Shown here piece by piece: positions 21,981 to 53,820 of a stretch of 64,000 bases of DNA (position 1 is its first letter; the number at the start of each line of letters is the position of its first letter). The notes under the pieces are model-generated. The model did not search any database. It had not been told where the DNA came from and worked only from the letters and a program-made list of their open reading frames with translations. The stretch is from Pseudomonas sp. Irchel 3A7 (lineage in GTDB: Bacteria > Pseudomonadota > Gammaproteobacteria > Pseudomonadales > Pseudomonadaceae). The stretch lies in assembly GCF_900187565.1 (NCBI RefSeq), contig NZ_FYED01000004.1, positions 248,001-312,000 of the forward strand. The letters are read 5' to 3'. The translations under genes were made by a program, and so were the position numbers.

Positions 21981-24320
21981 TTAAAACCGATAGTTCAGGC
22001 CCAGGGTCAACGAGCGTTCCGGCGCCGGTTGGCGACCCCATGGGCTGGTGTCGATGCCACGGAAGTAATACTCGCGGTTGAACAGGTTGCTGACCCCGGC
22101 CGAGGCGGTCAGGGTGCTGTGGTCCTGCAGCTTGAATTCCCGTTCTATCGCGGTATTCCACACCCAATAGGCCGGGAGCTTGCCCACGGATGCGGTCGCG
22201 TCTTCGTCACCGGAATTGGCGGCATCGGTGTAGGCGCTGCTGACGAACAGGCCGTCGAGGCTGTAGGTCCAGTGTTCGGCGAAGCGGTAACGGCCATCGA
22301 TATTGAATTGATTACGCGAGGCGTACGGTACTTCGTTGTCCTTGAAATCGCCGTTGCGCTGCCTGGCATCGAGGTAGGCGTAGCTGGCGTGCAGGTCCAG
22401 ATCGGGCAGCGCCGACGGGGTCCAGAACACTTCGGTTTCGATGCCCTGGTGACGGGTGCTGCCGAGGTTGACGAAGCGGTCGGTGGTGGCGTTGTAAACG
22501 ATCTGGTCGCTGAAATCGATGCGGTACACACCGAAGTCCACGCGCAAACCTTGCCACGGCGTGTAACGCACGCCCGTTTCATAGTTCCAGGCCAGTTCGG
22601 CGCCGACGTCGCCTTCCTTGACGATCTGCGTGACCTGCGGCGGGCGCAGGGATTTTTGCGCGTTGGCATAGACGAACCAGTCATCGCTGGCCTGGAAGCC
22701 AACGGTCAGGCCCGGCAGCCATTCCTCGGACTTGTTCTCGTGTTGGAAACCGGTGATGCCGTCGTCGTAGTTCATGGTCGCGTTTTCATAACGCACGCCC
22801 GGGGTGATGGTCAGGCGGTTGTCGAACAGGCCGATGGCGTTGCTGAGGTAAAACGCCTTGGCCTCGTCGTCGAAGGTCCAGTCGCGGAACGGCGTGGTCT
22901 TGCCCGTGGCCAGGCTTTGCCGGTTGACCTTGTAGTCGATGTCTTCACGCACGTAACGCGCCCCCAGCAACCAGGTCTGGCTGAGTCGGTCGCCGTCGAT
23001 GCTCATGCTCAGGCGCGGTTCGCTGCCCCAGACCTTGAAGTCCCGCGGGCCGTCCTGCCTGGTCACTGCCGCGCCGTCCGGGGTGAAGGGCAGGCCGACC
23101 ACGAAATTGCGGTAGCTGTTGTGGGCGAAATTCGTCCAGCTGAACTCCACCGAGTCGAACGGGCCGATGGCGCCGAGCTGTTGCGTGTACGTGCCCCAGA
23201 CCCGGTCGGTGTCGCCTTCGAAACGGTCCAGCGGCCGGGTCGACTGGCGCGGATCGTCCTTGTAGTCCTTGACGCTCAGCGCACCGGCCAGGTCCATGTC
23301 GGCCTGGTAGCGCTGCACGCCGAAGCTCAGGTCGCGGTCATCGTCGATGTTCCATTGGCCGCGCAGGCGATAGTTCTGGATATCGCTGTCGGAATGTTCG
23401 CGGGCGGTGTCGCCGTTGAGGGTGTTGAGGTCCAGTTGCAGGCCGAAATTGTCGGTCAGATAGCCGCCGGTGCCGAGGTAGGTGTCCCACAGCTGGTGGC
23501 CGCCGGCGTTGAAGGTGGTGCGCTCCTGCAGGGTGGTTTCCCACTCCTTGGGGATCGGCTTGCTGATGAAGTTGATCACCCCGCCGACGTTGTTCGGGCC
23601 GTATTGCACGGCAGCACCACCGCGCACGACATCGATGCGGTCGACCGTGGCCAGGGTCACCGGGAACAGCGACAAACCGGTCTGGCCATAAGGCGCCAGG
23701 GCCAGGGGAATGCCATCGGACAAGGCCTGCACCCGGCCGCTGCGGCTTTCATACAGGCCGCGCACGGAAATCTGCGGCAGGGCGCCGGTGCCTGTTTCAT
23801 CGAAGATCTTTACGCTCGGTACCCGTTGCAGCGCATCGTCCACGCCACGCACGCTGGCTTTATGCAGGTCGGCTTCCTTGACCATCGAACGGCTGCCGGC
23901 GTAGGAGAGGACTTCCGGGTCGGTCGCGCCGCCGAGCACATCGCCACGGATCACCATGGGGGCGATGTACTCGACTTCGGCGGGCTTGATGGCGACGGGC
24001 TCCGGTGTTTGAGCCGGGACGATGACGAAGGTGTGCTCGTCGCGCACCTGGGTTTTCAGGCCGCTGTGGTCGAGCAATCGCGCCAAGGCCTGCTGTGGCG
24101 TGTAGCTGCCCTTGAGCGCCTTGGTGGTTTTGCCAAGCGTGATGTCGCTGGCAAAGATAATCTGCACCGACAATTGCCGTGCCAGCGCATTGAGCGCCTT
24201 GTCCAGGCGGGTGCCCGGCAGGTCAAGTTCAACCTTTTCCTGCGCGTGAGCCGTTGCCCCGAGGGCGAGCAACAGGCTGGCGGCGAGGGCGGACAGTGGC
24301 AAAGGCCGGCGGTGCTTCAT
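21981..24320 (-). CDS. TonB-dependent transducer receptor, FecA-like
   Basis: A 779-residue outer-membrane receptor for ferric chelates. After a signal peptide (about 1-26) comes an STN signalling domain (LPGTRLDKALNALARQLSVQ onward, to about 100), then the plug with IDVVRGGAAVQYGPNNVGGVINF, then a 22-strand barrel ending in Phe (LTLGLNYRF). The plug is close to E. coli FecA (LAPYGQTGLSLFPVTL), which fits ferric citrate or a related chelate, but the ligand is not proven. The start at 24320 has GGAA upstream; the open frame continues into a repeat island. With the FecR and ECF sigma genes upstream it forms a cell-surface signalling set. Confidence 0.93.
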   Translation of the reverse strand: MKHRRPLPLSALAASLLLALGATAHAQEKVELDLPGTRLDKALNALARQLSVQIIFASDITLGKTTKALKGSYTPQQALARLLDHSGLKTQVRDEHTFVIVPAQTPEPVAIKPAEVEYIAPMVIRGDVLGGATDPEVLSYAGSRSMVKEADLHKASVRGVDDALQRVPSVKIFDETGTGALPQISVRGLYESRSGRVQALSDGIPLALAPYGQTGLSLFPVTLATVDRIDVVRGGAAVQYGPNNVGGVINFISKPIPKEWETTLQERTTFNAGGHQLWDTYLGTGGYLTDNFGLQLDLNTLNGDTAREHSDSDIQNYRLRGQWNIDDDRDLSFGVQRYQADMDLAGALSVKDYKDDPRQSTRPLDRFEGDTDRVWGTYTQQLGAIGPFDSVEFSWTNFAHNSYRNFVVGLPFTPDGAAVTRQDGPRDFKVWGSEPRLSMSIDGDRLSQTWLLGARYVREDIDYKVNRQSLATGKTTPFRDWTFDDEAKAFYLSNAIGLFDNRLTITPGVRYENATMNYDDGITGFQHENKSEEWLPGLTVGFQASDDWFVYANAQKSLRPPQVTQIVKEGDVGAELAWNYETGVRYTPWQGLRVDFGVYRIDFSDQIVYNATTDRFVNLGSTRHQGIETEVFWTPSALPDLDLHASYAYLDARQRNGDFKDNEVPYASRNQFNIDGRYRFAEHWTYSLDGLFVSSAYTDAANSGDEDATASVGKLPAYWVWNTAIEREFKLQDHSTLTASAGVSNLFNREYYFRGIDTSPWGRQPAPERSLTLGLNYRF

Positions 24321-24344
24321 GGACGGTGTTCCTTGGAAAGTGAG

Positions 24345-24386
24345 GGCTGTACTGACTAGCCGCCACGAGCGCGGGAAAACCCTACC
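24345..24386 (-). promoter_or_regulatory. Candidate ECF-sigma promoter of the FecA-like gene
   Basis: On the minus strand a GGTAGGGTTTTCCCGCG block lies about 50-66 bases upstream of the start, followed by GGCTAGTC. It resembles promoters of receptor genes read by iron-starvation ECF sigma factors. It is on the receptor side of the repeat island, so the receptor need not depend on the sigma-fecR transcript. Confidence 0.3.
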
Positions 24387-24437
24387 TGTGTCTTTGAAGT
24401 TTTTTTGCTTGTGGTGGGTGCTTTGGGTGTGCAGATG

Positions 24438-25076
24438 GATTGGATCGGGTGTATATCCAATGCTTCGGTAACGGCCGCTTAGGGTTTCGCCCTTACGGCG
24501 AGTCACTTGGAGAAGCGCCGATGGAGGTCGTCACAGGTTGACGGACAGGCTCAGGGCTTGGGGTGGCGTCCACCGCAAAAGCAAAAAGCGAGGCGGCCTA
24601 GTAGCCGACCTGATTGCATGCTTGTCCGCGATCCTCTTGTGGGAGCGAGCCTGCTCGCGAAGACGGTCCGGCAGCCAACCTGATTTTAGCGGGTGTGGAG
24701 CAATGCTTGCTCGCGATGAACGCCCAGACAGCGCGATCCTCCAGACAGGGCGCGTTATCGTTGACGTCCTTCGCGAGCAGGCTCGCTCCCACAGTGGAAT
24801 GAGCACATCTGCCGAAGCCAGGTCGGCTGTCAGGCCGCCTCGCTTTGCTTTTGATCCAGGCGCCCCGTTAAACCACGATGGCCCATCGCGGCGGCCCACG
24901 GAGCAATGCTGGAGTGAGGGCATGCCGAGCCTGGGCGAGGCACCGAGTGGTGGGGCAAGAGCGCTTTGGTTACTTTCGTCTGGGCCGGCATTCCGGATTT
25001 TCGAAAGTGACTCGCCGTAAGGGCGAAACCGCCAGCAGCCGTTACCGCAGCAACGGATATGCCCCCAATCCCATTT
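24438..25076. repeat. Nested palindromic repeat island I
   Basis: Outer inverted arms lie at 24438-24508 and 25005-25076, sharing TTTCGCCCTTACGGCGAGTC and CGGTAACGGC. Inner inverted arms lie at 24578-24612 and 24819-24852, sharing GCGAGGCGGCCT and GCCGACCTG. Class A REP arms occupy the centre (24638-24793). A stretch with CCACGATGGCCCATCGCGG at about 24870 also recurs in island III. No credible gene is inside. It separates fecR from the FecA-like receptor gene. Confidence 0.8.
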
Positions 25077-25111
25077 CTTGCGAGCGAACAGCCTCACATC
25101 TCTATCGGCGT

Positions 25112-25948
25112 TTATTTCTTCGTTGCCTTGCGCCGCACATGCAGGGTGCCATCGAACTCGGTGCTGAGGCTCAGCGGCAATATGCTCGGCAACAGGTTCA
25201 GCAGGTCCTCGACGTTGCGGTTATCGAATACGCCGCTGATCGGCAGGCTGGCCAGGCTCGGGTCATCAAGGACAATCGCCGGCTTGCGGTAACGCTGGAT
25301 CTGCGCAAGGGCTTCGGCCAGCGGTGTGCGCTCGAAGATCAGCCGGCTGTCCTTCCAGGCAATGGCCGCGTCGGTGTCGACGGTGACCGGTGACTGCAGA
25401 AGCTTTTGGCGCACGTCGACCTGCTGACCTGGCACTAGCTGCACGCTGTGCCCGGCTTCGGTGGTGTCATTGACGCTGACGGCACCGCGCACCAGAGTCA
25501 CCCGCACCGCGTCATCGAAATGGCTGACGCTGAACAGCGTGCCCAACACATTGACCTGTGCGACACCGGCATCGACCTGGAAGGGGCGGACAAGCGTTTT
25601 GGACACCTCGAACAGCGCCTGTCCGGTTTGCAGTTGCACCCGCCGTGAGCGCAGGTGCCAGGCGACCGTGACCCGGCTGTCGCTGTCGAGGGTCATGCGG
25701 CTGCCGTCGACCAGTTTCACCACCCGGCGCTCGCCGATCACGGTGTGGTACTGCTCACGCTGATACGCCGGATCGAACCACGCCAACCCCGCGCCCAGCA
25801 GCACCAGCAACACCGTTGCGCCGAGTGCCTTGCGTGGCTTGCGCGGGGTAGGCGTTGGCATCGGAAAGCGGTTGCGCAACTCTTCTCGGTGGCGGGCCAG
25901 GGCTTCTTCTTCGCGGGACAATGGCGTTGGGGCTGGCGATTGGCTCAC
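25112..25948 (-). CDS. FecR-family anti-sigma / signal transducer
   Basis: A 278-residue inner-membrane protein. The cytoplasmic N-terminus (about 1-40) carries basic residues and would hold the sigma factor. One helix (KALGATVLLVLLGAGLAWF, about 40-58) crosses the membrane. The periplasmic FecR domain has VVKLVDGSRMTLDSDSRVTV and FEVSKTLVRPFQVDAG, and the C-terminal part (secretin/STN-like, PLAEALAQIQRYRK) contacts the receptor signalling domain. Its start overlaps the sigma gene stop by 4 bases. Repeat island I begins 35 bases after its stop, before the receptor gene. Confidence 0.92.
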   Translation of the reverse strand: MSQSPAPTPLSREEEALARHREELRNRFPMPTPTPRKPRKALGATVLLVLLGAGLAWFDPAYQREQYHTVIGERRVVKLVDGSRMTLDSDSRVTVAWHLRSRRVQLQTGQALFEVSKTLVRPFQVDAGVAQVNVLGTLFSVSHFDDAVRVTLVRGAVSVNDTTEAGHSVQLVPGQQVDVRQKLLQSPVTVDTDAAIAWKDSRLIFERTPLAEALAQIQRYRKPAIVLDDPSLASLPISGVFDNRNVEDLLNLLPSILPLSLSTEFDGTLHVRRKATKK

Positions 25949-32440: not shown

Positions 32441-32925
32441 GGGATGTGGGGGATATATCCATTTCTTCGGTAATGGCAGCTGGCGGTTTCGCCCTTACGG
32501 CGAGTTACTTTGGAAAAGCCTGTACGGACCGGACACAGGGTTGACGGGTGCGCCGGATCCCTTGTGGGAGCGAGCCTGCTCGCGAAGGACGTCAACGATA
32601 ACGCGCCCTGTCTGGATGATTGCGTTGTCTGGACGTTCATCGTCGGAACGCCGCCCGGAGACAAGCATCGCTCCTGAAGCAGAATGAATACATCCGCGAA
32701 ATCAGGTTGGCAGTCGGGCCGTCTTCGCGAGCAGGCTCGCTCCCACAGTGGAATTTGCACATCCGCCAAAGTCAGGTCGGCTGTCAGGCCGCCTCGTTTT
32801 GGCTTTGCGAGGTGCTCACCCCCTTGAGAGGCTTCGTTCCGGTTCTGCGCAGTGGGCAACCCGGCATAGATGTAAGAGCGGAACCATTAGTGGCCGTTAC
32901 CGAAGAAATGGATATGTACACCTTC
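32441..32925. repeat. Nested palindromic repeat island II
   Basis: The left outer arm (32441-32510) contains TTTCGCCCTTACGGCGAGTT; the partial right outer arm (32883-32925) contains GGCCGTTACCGAAGAAATGG. Inside are class A REP arms (32561 and 32722), the 20-base motif CGTCGGAACGCCGCCCGGAG (32641-32660) and one inner arm with GTCGGCTGTCAGGCCGCCTC. A further lone REP arm follows at 32950-32977. No gene is seen from 32438 to 33107. Confidence 0.78.
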
Positions 32926-41058: not shown

Positions 41059-42402
41059 ATGAAAAGAATATTCGGCAAACTCTACGTACAAGTACTCCTC
41101 GCCGTGATCCTCGGTGCCATCGTCGGGGTCTTCGTACCCGAAACCGGAACCGCGCTCAAACCCTTGGGCGACGCGTTCATCAAACTGATCAAGATGCTCC
41201 TCGCGCCGGTGATTTTCCTGACGGTGGTTACGGGCATCGCACGCATGGATAACATGAAGGAACTGGGCCGGGTCGGCTTTCGCGCGCTGCTGTATTTCGA
41301 AGTGGTATCGACCCTGGCGCTGGTGCTCGGGTTGGTGGTGGTCGATGTGTTCAAACCCGGTGCCGGCATGAACATTGACGTCGCCACGCTCGATACCGCC
41401 AGCATCGCCACGTACACCACGGCAGGCAAGCATGCCTCGTTCATGGACTTCGTCATGAACATCATCCCCGACACCATTGTCGATGCCTTCGCCAAGGGCA
41501 ACGTCCTGCAAATCCTGCTGTTTTCCATTCTGCTGGGCATCGCCCTGGCCCATGTCGGACCGCGCGGCAAAGCGTTCGTCGACACCCTGGACAGCCTGAT
41601 GCAGGGCATGTTTCGCATCGTCAACATGGTCATGCGCCTGGCGCCGATCGGCGCATTCGGTGCCATTGCATTCACCATCGGCAAGTACGGTTTTGGTTCG
41701 CTATTCTCCCTGGGCAAGCTGATGGCTTGCGTGTACCTGACCTGTGCGGTGTTTGTGATTTTTGTGCTGGGGCCGATCTGCCGCTACAGCGGTTTCAGCC
41801 TGTGGAAATTCCTAAAGTTCATCAAGGAAGAACTGTTCACCGTGCTGGGCACCAGCTCTTCGGAATCGGTGCTGCCGCAGATGATCTCCAAGATGGAAAA
41901 GGCCGGCGTTTCCAAACCCGTCGCCGGGATGATCATTCCCTCCGGCTTGACCTTCAATCCGGACGGGCAGGCCATCTACTACACCATCGCGGCGATTTTC
42001 ATTGCCCAGGCGACCAACACGCCACTGACCCTGACCGATCAATTGATCGTGCTGGCGGTGCTGATGTTCACCTCCAAGGGCTCGGCGGGCGTCACCGGTT
42101 CCGGCTTCATCATTCTGGCGGCCACGCTGTCGTCCCTCGGTACGATTCCGGTGGCGGGCATGGTGTTGCTGCTGGGTGTTGATCGGTTCATGTCGGAAGC
42201 GCGTGCGATCACCAATACCATCGGCAATGGTGTCGGCACCATGGCGATTGCCAAGTGGGTGGGGGCGCTGGATACGGTGAAAATGCACAAGGCGTTGAAT
42301 GGGGAGGTGGTGGAGGTAGGGCAGGTGAATGATGTGATTGTGCCGACATCGGTAGTGGCTGCTCCTTTGTCGGTGAGCCTCAAAAATGCCTCTCGGGCAT
42401 AG
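41059..42402 (+). CDS. dctA: C4-dicarboxylate:cation symporter, DctA-type, with altered TM7 motif
   Basis: A 447-residue inner-membrane symporter of the DctA family. HP1 [14 protein letters not shown]2 [13 protein letters not shown] and TM8 [14 protein letters not shown], with the carboxylate-binding Arg382, are canonical. The TM7 sodium motif, usually N-x-D-G-T, reads N300-P-D-G-Q304: Pro replaces the hydrophobic residue and Gln replaces Thr. The bases (AAT CCG GAC GGG CAG) are clear. It follows a D-malate/tartrate dehydrogenase and should supply its substrate. Repeat island III starts directly after the TAG stop. Confidence 0.9.
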
Positions 42403-42926
42403 GATTGGGTACATATCCATTCCTGCGGTAACAGCTGCAAACGGTTCCGCCCTAACGGCGGGTCATTTGGAAAAGCCTGTAGGAGCGAGCTTGCTCGCGA
42501 AAAACGTCTGGACGACGCGATCATCCAGGCAGAGCGCGTTATCGTTGACGTCCATCGCGAGCAAGCTCGCTCCTACAGAAATGCGCTCGGCCTTCCGACG
42601 GGGCAGATCAAAAGCAGAGCAAAGCAAAAGCGAGGCGGCCTGACAGCCGACCTGGGTTGCGGGCCTATCTGCGATCCAACTGTGGGAGCGAGCCTGCTCG
42701 CGAAGGGGTCGTGTCAGTCACCATTAATGTTCGCTGTCAGACCGCTTTCGCGAGCAGGCTCGCTCCCACAGGGGATTGGCGTACATCTGCAAAAGCCAGG
42801 TCGGCTGTCAGGCCGCCTCGCTTTGGCTTTTGATTGCAGGCGCCCCGTTAAACCACGATGGCCCATCGCGGCGACCCACGACCATTGGTCGCCCTCACTC
42901 AAATAATGGATATGCGCCCAATCCCC
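42403..42926. repeat. Nested palindromic repeat island III
   Basis: The left outer arm (42403-42470) has GCGGTAACAGCTG and GCCCTAACGGCGGGTC. A class B REPIN (CTGTAGGAGCGAGCTTGCTC) is at 42477-42578. The inner arm GCGAGGCGGCCTGACAGCCG lies at about 42630. A class A REPIN is at 42680-42771. The inner right arm with GGTCGGCTGTCAGGCCGCCT is near 42800, and the partial right outer arm at 42881-42926. No gene is seen between 42403 and 43015. Confidence 0.8.
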
Positions 42927-53320: not shown

Positions 53321-53820
53321 GTGGGAGCGAGCCTGCTCGCGAATGCAGTGTGTCATTGAGCATAAATGTTGACTGACACGCCGCATTCGCGAGCAGGCTC
53401 GCTCCCACAGTTTGATCTTCAGTGAACGCGAAACCTGCGACCGCCGAAGGTCCTTTGTGGGAGCGAGCCTGCTCGCGAAGAGGCCGGTACATTCAACATC
53501 CATATCGACTGACCGGACGCCTTCTCGAGCAGGCTCGCTCCCACAGTTTGATCTTCAGTGAACACGAAACCTGCGACCGCCGAAGGTCCTTTGTGGGAGC
53601 GAGCCTGCTCGCGAAGAGGCCGGTACATTCAACATAGAATCTCCTACAGTTTGATCTTCAGTGAACGCGAAACCTGCGACCGCCGAAGGTCCTTTGTGGG
53701 AGCGAGCCTGCTCGCGAAGAGGCCGGTACATTCAACATAGAATCTCCCACAGTTTGATCTTCAGTGAACGCGAAATCTGCGACCGCCGAAGATCCTTTGT
53801 GGGAGCGAGCAGGCTCCCAC
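53321..53820. repeat. REPIN array with tandem 103-base units
   Basis: A full class A REPIN (53321-53410) is followed by four copies of a unit starting TTTGATCTTCAGTGAAC at 53411, 53547, 53650 and 53753. The second and third units are 103 bases long and differ at two positions; the first is 136 bases because it keeps the second REP arm. The last ends in a shortened hairpin GTGGGAGCGAGCAGGCTCCCAC. From 53821 to 54002 I see only the leader of the DUF2790 gene. Confidence 0.88.

Follow-up and report, generated by a model that had tools for sequence, protein, structure and literature searches.

Probable decayed miniature elements with paired, outward-facing arms and a predicted triple-helix pseudoknot RNA in Pseudomonas sp. 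Irchel 3A7

TwoAYGGAY (Rfam RF01731) has been described as a probable RNA of unknown function (PMC2864571) and was predicted to bind CsrA (PMC4333381), according to the accessible parts of these papers. Those parts, like the accessible parts of PMC11701678, PMC7657543 and PMC11661157, say nothing of inverted pairs, MITE ends or a triple helix in connection with this motif. A further paper, as far as its accessible text goes, treats a class of mobile or repeat motifs and takes a single long stem as its worked example (PMC11109978). REPs, REPINs and BIMEs, with their RAYT, are known as dispersed, intergenic, inverted structured pairs (PMC3116915, PMC2817692, accessible parts). The islands studied here share these properties and have REPs nested inside them, but their arms have a far greater length and predicted RNA strands that face outward, are mostly unlike each other and occur in hosts where the ends are different. 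The accessible part of another study describes R178 and R200 of P. fluorescens, two intergenic repeats with units of 101 bp and 320 bp and tens of copies (PMC2718517); R178 has internal inverted repeats. The islands resemble these repeats in such features and may be related to them. When diagnostic sequence strings of the family were searched in the literature, no paper was matched, and its absence from print is limited to such string searches.

The window, a stretch of 64,000 nucleotides of the Pseudomonas sp. Irchel 3A7 genome, contains three islands (I, II and III). Their coordinates and the presence of an inverted pair at each, as given in the initial annotation, were confirmed by repeat search. 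Read outward, the arm consists of P1a, a loop strand c', G[GC]TT followed by b', P1b, a' followed by RA[GC]T, and a terminal hairpin H1. The features are the following, where R1 is a covariance model built from copies of this genome:

24439 to 25074, no strand: island I, two inverted arms of RNA type that enclose inner arms and two paired REPs (repeat search and R1)
24451 to 24547, RNA strand minus, outward: left arm of island I (R1 match of 63.6 bits on the plus strand; alignment)
24585 to 24612, plus: inner arm of island I, left copy (repeat search)
24638 to 24662, plus: REP of island I, left of the pair (repeat search; motif scan)
24769 to 24793, minus: REP of island I, right of the pair (repeat search; motif scan)
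24819 to 24846, minus: inner arm of island I, right copy (repeat search)
24873 to 24891, plus: CCACGATGGCCCATCGCGG of island I, a putative GGA-loop hairpin remnant, judged by eye against other copies
24953 to 25062, RNA strand plus, outward: right arm of island I (R1 match of 89 bits on the minus strand; motif scan)
24959 to 24967, plus: loop strand c' (GAGCGCTTT), the predicted third strand of the triple helix (sequence; offset-6 mirror statistics)
24968 to 24978, plus: P2 5' strand GGTTACTTTCG (sequence; covariation)
25002 to 25012, plus: P2 3' strand CGAAAGTGACT (sequence; covariation)
25013 to 25025, plus: terminal hairpin H1, CGCC-GTAAG-GGCG (sequence; compensatory changes at two pairs)
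32448 to 32922, no strand: island II, a decayed inverted pair (R1 matches at 32453-32545, plus, and 32811-32917, minus)
42402 to 42924, no strand: island III, a decayed inverted pair (R1 matches at 42411-42499, plus, and 42817-42915, minus, weak)
42853 to 42871, plus: CCACGATGGCCCATCGCGG remnant of island III (motif scan)

According to the repeat search, the outer inverted arms measure 70 nt in island I (24439-24508 and 25005-25074, 84% complementary), 51 nt in island II (32448-32498 and 32872-32922, 78%) and 20 nt in island III (42402-42421 and 42905-42924, 90%). The common motifs were mostly as previously described, but only in island I are all of them found on both sides. TTTCGCCCTTACGGCGAGTC (up to four mismatches) is present at both ends of island I and only at the left of islands II (one mismatch) and III (three mismatches), whereas CGGTAACGGC (up to one mismatch) marks both ends of islands I and II, and island III has it on the left alone. 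GCGAGGCGGCCT is found on either side in islands I and III, but in island II on the right only (one mismatch), and the same goes for GCCGACCTG. There is one REP pair in island I, one in island II, which has another REP just to its right, and two in island III. The proposed order outer-inner-REP-inner-outer is complete in island I and incomplete in II and III when all named motifs are required, while CCACGATGGCCCATCGCGG is indeed common to islands I and III. R1 matched six times in the window, once per end per island, the weakest being the right end of island III (E=7.6e-4). In the motif scan the pseudoknot motif was retained by one of the six arms, the right arm of island I; in the alignment the left arm of this island retains the terminal hairpin, and its second hairpin is degenerate.

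The initial annotation had stated that the islands code for nothing credible. This holds for protein: for five open frames of 153-188 aa overlapping the islands, no Pfam hit passed the curated cut-off (a single one, with an E of 0.0064, fell below it), and a simple codon-based gene caller called no gene inside 18 arm pairs from the fetched loci. What the statement overlooked is a predicted structured RNA. Omega-RNAs of the IscB/TnpB kind were also looked for, and the loci given Rfam searches contained no HEARO or IS605-orfB RNA match. Island III starts at the stop codon of an SDF symporter gene (41059-42402). Island I lies in the gap 24321-25111 and parts a fecR-like gene (25112-25948, minus strand) from the downstream TonB-receptor gene (21981-24320, minus strand), so that joint expression of the two may be affected. 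Elsewhere in the window, many REP copies are present throughout, with six REPs in alternating orientation at 53321-53717.

When searching the genome (6.52 Mb) with up to two mismatches, the 20-mer TTTCGCCCTTACGGCGAGTC was found at 29 places against 0 for a reversed-pattern control, a recurrence far beyond chance. R1 was built from 25 genome copies, which match by construction, and gave 38 arm matches in this genome with the building copies included. The refuting outcome named in the initial annotation, copies at these three loci only, was therefore not what we found. Besides the islands, the copies comprise island-like pairs, many solo arms and two tandem duplications. The latter consist of arm plus REP and lie at C5:42490/42949 (459-bp period) and C18:241650/242173 (523-bp period; loci L017, L023, L026 and L027). 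A set of solo arms (L001, L002, L010, L015, L016 and L025) has a different body with a CATCCGGGG...CCCCGGATG stem; in these, GTTCGAC and GGCGC hairpins replace the GGA hairpins, and the dispersed copies are nearly alike.

With this genome counted, R1 carriers were 53 of the 59 genomes of the genus and 29 of the 398 genomes of the phylum (15 of 212 genera); at E 0.01, they were 44 of 369 genomes of the class (36 of 272 genera). The strict motif was found in 20 of the 398 phylum genomes, all from the class to which this genome belongs, and the control gave 0 hits. Carriers among the matches listed include Methylobacter, Thiobacillus, Variovorax, Paracidovorax, Xanthomonas, Lysobacter, Solimonas and a Cystobacterineae MAG. 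One query against E. coli gave no match. Plasmids and phages were rejected as chief carriers, with 1 and 4 plasmid records in two queries and 0 phage records in one; among viral contigs, 14 matching stretches were found on 13 contigs. Four loci of Variovorax sp. JS1663 (L150, L157, L185 and L195) have the motif in their first 71 bases, apparently at a contig end, which makes the repeat a probable cause of assembly breaks.

Mapping of the copies relative to gene ends, which had been proposed as a check, gave an intergenic placement that is not restricted to gene tails. Over 114 elements the orientation of the flanking genes, as judged with the simple codon-based gene caller, was mixed: -- 7, +- 6, ++ 3 and -+ 2 for arm pairs, and -- 33, ++ 26, +- 25 and -+ 12 for solo arms. 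An exclusive tail-tail rule is ruled out by this count.

The structure of the arm was examined in the alignment of the 25 copies. In total, 97.6% of the cells were paired compared to 91.5% in shuffled alignments, and 25 double-change cells were observed against 9.0 in shuffles; sliding the partners abolished the covariation signal. In the second hairpin, one pair is G-C in 18 copies and C-G in 7, and another is A-T in 15 and C-G in 10. The first hairpin varies less, with T-A 23 and C-G 2 at one pair and C-G 24 and T-A 1 at another. These four pairs and one more account for the 25 double-change cells. Further pair types in this alignment showed no gain over chance (9 against 9.1 shuffled). Since the structure had been drawn from the same sequences, a recount was made that covered every locus, left one or both bases of each tested pair free and took each distinct arm once. 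Among the 213 distinct arms, S1-S2 was GC in 187, CG in 21 and other in 5, and X-X' was AT in 186, CG in 23 and other in 4. Opposite a U fixed by the pattern, G was found 127 times, A 84 times and T twice. The outermost stem pair joined G with T in 170 of the 213 arms and G with C in 36. Such G.U pairs would be A.C mismatches on the other strand, which is why the outward strand is taken as the RNA strand. The compensatory changes and the G.U wobbles thus support an RNA on this strand. A fold of whole solo arms obtained with RNAalifold (A2) had a double change at 5 of 90 pairs and an unfavourable covariation term of +1.15; this fold rests mainly on unvarying pairs and was therefore discarded as evidence.

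Upstream of the pseudoknot, some copies carry hairpins with GGA loops. In 75 arms with non-redundant upstream regions, 70 such hairpins lie on the RNA strand and 15 are antisense, some of the latter belonging to the partner arm. At least two were found on the RNA strand in 24 of the 75 arms, compared to 2 of the 75 for the antisense strand. Nine TwoAYGGAY matches were found in distant copies, in left as well as right arms, and all nine were on the outward strand. Two of these exceed the gathering score of 43 bits (45.1 in L065 and 43.9 in L070), and the other seven, in L065, L069, L070, L071 and L073, fall below it. Island I and L015 had no Rfam match to TwoAYGGAY, the window and seven loci of this genome had none at the gathering threshold, and five loci of Methylobacter, Xanthomonas, Variovorax and Thiobacillus had none. 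The matching copies resemble TwoAYGGAY in the AYGGAY-loop hairpins on the outward strand, and differ from it by the pseudoknot and H1, which are outside the matched stretches.

The arms could instead be regulatory RNAs binding RsmA/CsrA (sponges), useful to the host and spread as a MITE, with a pseudoknot that only stabilises them. The 24 arms with at least two GGA-loop hairpins, the CATGGATG loops in relatives of the same genus, the ACATGGATGT loops in Xanthomonas copies and the CsrA binding predicted for TwoAYGGAY in the accessible part of PMC4333381 all agree with this explanation. On the other hand, there are hosts whose arms have the pseudoknot and H1 but no such hairpins, and 51 of the 75 arms have none or one, so that an RsmA role cannot be general. 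We consider such a sponge quite unlikely as the explanation of the family as a whole.

In telomerase RNA and the SAM-II riboswitch, a pyrimidine loop 1 runs parallel to the purine strand of stem 2, crosses the deep groove and forms U.A-U and C+.G-C triples. The same loop-1/stem-2 triples and deep-groove crossing are predicted for the arm of the islands; here they would be repeated in a bacterial mobile element, and the stem and loop strands have diversified together between copies. The strand c' is a mirror image of b', not a copy of it. When reversed c' was compared with the stem strand over 8 nt, the identity at offset 6 was 0.798 against 0.591 (sd 0.0145) for shuffled strands; none of 500 shuffles attained this value, the highest being 0.635. 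The test counted each of 78 distinct stems once, irrespective of phylogeny. They came from 464 arm rows that included duplicates, and the arms were chosen regardless of c': each had 30 nt or more upstream, was free of N and had a P2 no shorter than 11 nt. Offsets 5 and 8 were slightly over their shuffles (0.553 against 0.499 and 0.506 against 0.465, respectively), and the remaining offsets among 2-9 were at or under theirs. An earlier run with 55 stems gave 0.811 against 0.608. For 48 informative stems the mirror identity was 0.807, attained by 0 of 2000 shuffles, whereas comparing the second A-run with the stem strand in direct orientation yielded 0.505 for the best of three shifts, and a direct copy was rejected.

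At offset 6, a T of P2 faces T in 355 of 364 cells and a C faces C in 43 of 50, again irrespective of phylogeny. Counting against the prediction, a G of P2 faces C 27 times, G 8 times and T 5 times. The T-T and C-C facing is the pattern that U.A-U and C+.G-C triples would leave if c' lay parallel to the purine strand a'. The upstream complement of the hairpin loop, P1, is longer than expected by chance (5.91 against 4.92 nt, sd 0.14; 55 stems), but it is weaker than P2, as it runs for only 4 nt in 8 of the 55 stems and 3 nt in 2. P1 is the weakest part of the predicted fold, and with an L3 of about 0-1 nt a long P1 would be sterically tight.

Mirror repeats are also what intramolecular triplex DNA (H-DNA) requires, and they are present here around GGTTAC. 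As the family is mobile and its arms lie near the element ends, the arms could be DNA-level structures, hairpins or H-DNA, that serve transposition or replication and have no RNA function. Yet the spacer GSTT pairs with RAST and covaries with it, and its G.U pairs would not match if the other strand were read. Moreover, many copies of this genome have pyrimidine runs of no more than 2-7 nt, which is short for H-DNA, and the terminal repeats in Methylobacter and in G190, a genome of the same genus as the window, are other sequences that lie outside H1. The strand asymmetry of the GGA loops, 70 to 15, argues in the same direction. The offset of 6 agrees with an H-type pseudoknot whose loop passes across the deep groove of an A-form helix and needs no linker, and an RNA is therefore favoured over an intramolecular DNA triplex. 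In our view the DNA-level explanation is unlikely, and the triple-helix pseudoknot RNA remains the preferred reading of the arm.

The arms occur mainly as divergent pairs. Among 51 distinct adjacent pairs less than 1.5 kb apart, 43 diverge, 4 are in tandem and 4 converge. In 36 of the 43 divergent pairs the first 12 stem bases differ, and in 7 they are identical. A simple palindrome or cruciform was therefore rejected as the whole story: the inverted pairs seen by the initial annotation are real, but one arm of a pair is not simply complementary to the other. G190 harbours 143 motif copies, of which 100 arms were listed; these form 37 adjacent pairs less than 2 kb apart, all 37 divergent, and among the matches listed every one of the 37 joins a GCTT-type with a GGTT-type arm. 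Outside G190, the 32 divergent pairs comprise 7 of mixed type, 23 of type GGTT-GGTT and 2 of type GCTT-GCTT. The mixed rule is thus limited to G190, and elsewhere most pairs still differ in the stem. Convergent arms approximately 170-240 bp apart were seen at three Xanthomonas loci and two similar ones (L154, L167, L174, L247 and L249), and in L154 and L167 both convergent arms carry GGGACATGGATGTCCC hairpins.

The divergence within pairs also bears on the idea that the islands are ordinary REP/BIME mosaics with inverted duplications, in which the structure is a by-product of palindromes copied by RAYT. REPs do lie inside the islands, and at 10 of the 29 loci of this genome a REP starts 59-63 bases left of the outer end. 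Such mosaics do not account for the 36 of 43 pairs that are unlike in their stems, nor for a family that extends to Methylobacter, Thiobacillus, Variovorax and other hosts in which its ends are quite different, and we regard this explanation as very unlikely. Because the arms of a pair mostly differ in the stem, they do not resemble copies that have been kept together as a palindrome.

Signs of mobility were found for island I and for relatives of the family. Between the same two genes that flank island I, the gap measures 791 bp here and 76 bp in the relative G419, which is an empty site at the same gene junction and answers the presence/absence check proposed earlier; no clear target duplication was seen there. 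For island III, the orthologues of the left gene have no island beside them in 9 of 9 cases; the right neighbour differs in this orthologue set, so no empty site can be claimed. In Methylobacter the arm sits in units bounded by the repeats ACTGATGTTACGC...GCGTAACATCAGT. Of 11 such units, 8 have the arm motif, with lengths of 316-321 bp in seven and 521 bp in the eighth, and the rest are two 1107-bp copies and one 135-bp unit without the arm motif. Exact target duplications of 5 bp were found in 4 of the 11 units and of 6 bp in 3, and 6 of the 8 units with the arm motif have an exact 5-6-bp duplication. By their ends, there are three 1107-bp units, which have the same repeats as the arm units; the one that was read (L318) encodes a 353-aa DDE transposase (PF13546, E 2.5e-15).

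At the ends of the G190 elements stands a long repeat of quite another sequence, which starts with GGTTCTTCGCGGAATC. In the 11 elements with both ends, the numbers of equal bases per 8-bp flank were 8, 8, 8, 8, 8, 7, 7, 7, 5, 5 and 5, so that at least 7 of 8 bases are equal in 8 elements. These 8-bp AT-rich duplications are, we presume, reminiscent of ISL3-type elements. An arm is carried by 19 of the 20 repeat loci, and the last one is without an evident transposase. Two longer elements (L440 and L441; G190 C1 1389400-1392000 and 2558350-2561050) contain an IS110-family gene between the arms, which are spaced 1859 and 1970 bp apart. They were rejected as autonomous forms, as the same IS110-family gene occurs in both, on a common 1455-bp stretch with 98.4% identity, and is read as an insertion into the element. 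This gene stands at the corresponding place in the two loci, as if the element centre were its target. A search for an autonomous copy with the ends of this genome found none, all 25 matches being known arm copies.

The family thus agrees with MITEs in its terminal inverted repeats, its 5-6-bp or 8-bp duplications, its size of mostly less than 1 kb, its mostly geneless content and, in Methylobacter, repeats common to a transposase-bearing copy. Terminal inverted repeats with target duplications are found in the Methylobacter and G190 copies, and ends common with an autonomous element in Methylobacter only. It differs from MITEs in having an RNA-like cassette that recurs with unrelated ends across hosts. 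The proposal that the islands are a composite non-autonomous mobile element is supported by the 38 dispersed arm matches, the empty site of island I in G419 and the MITE anatomy of the relatives. For the alternative of the initial annotation, a nucleoid or recombination site, the analysis gave no support. Target-site duplications, which were to be looked for, were found only in these relatives, in Methylobacter (7 of 11 units, exact 5-6 bp) and in G190 (8 of 11, at least 7 of 8 bases).

Islands I-III are therefore probably decayed copies of a non-autonomous transposable element with a structured-RNA cassette. We regard them as decayed representatives of a MITE variant with a predicted structured RNA. 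The statistics of the sequences establish P2 covariation, a strand preference, one strong mirror offset, a majority of pairs that diverge and, in two hosts, mobility together with transposon ends. From these we infer that the arm RNA is made and folds as predicted.

An intact element would have two arms with their RNA strands pointing outward. Each arm RNA would form an H-type pseudoknot and, beyond it on the side of the element edge, H1, with GGA-loop hairpins before the pseudoknot in some copies, and c' would lie in the deep groove of P2 as U.A-U and C+.G-C triples. The element ends would be acted on in trans by transposases. Whichever side transcription came from, it would read the near arm as antisense and the far arm as sense, so that each read-through RNA would end in a folded sense arm. 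For island I, where both neighbouring genes are on the minus strand, the left arm would be the sense one. The knot and H1 may stabilise or terminate the read-through RNA, and GGA hairpins, where present, may recruit RsmA/CsrA. Insertion would thereby become tolerable near genes from both directions, and the unlike stem sequences would keep the two arms from pairing together.

More tentatively, and with rather more doubt than confidence, we suggest that the family represents a widespread undescribed class of selfish elements. The conserved core of such an element would be a diverging, mutually non-pairing RNA pair instead of a transposase, each RNA with a triple-helix pseudoknot at its end, and this cassette would move between unrelated ends and act as a two-way end protector or transcription insulator, with TwoAYGGAY as one of its domains. 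The orphan Rfam motif TwoAYGGAY would gain a larger architecture and a genomic home. An RNA triple helix is predicted in many Pseudomonadota from the coupled variation of three strands, and the islands may be used as a marker set for presence/absence tests. The findings raise the questions why the same RNA-like cassette occurs in mobile elements with different ends, and why G190, the best-sampled genome, always has two different outward arms among the matches listed.
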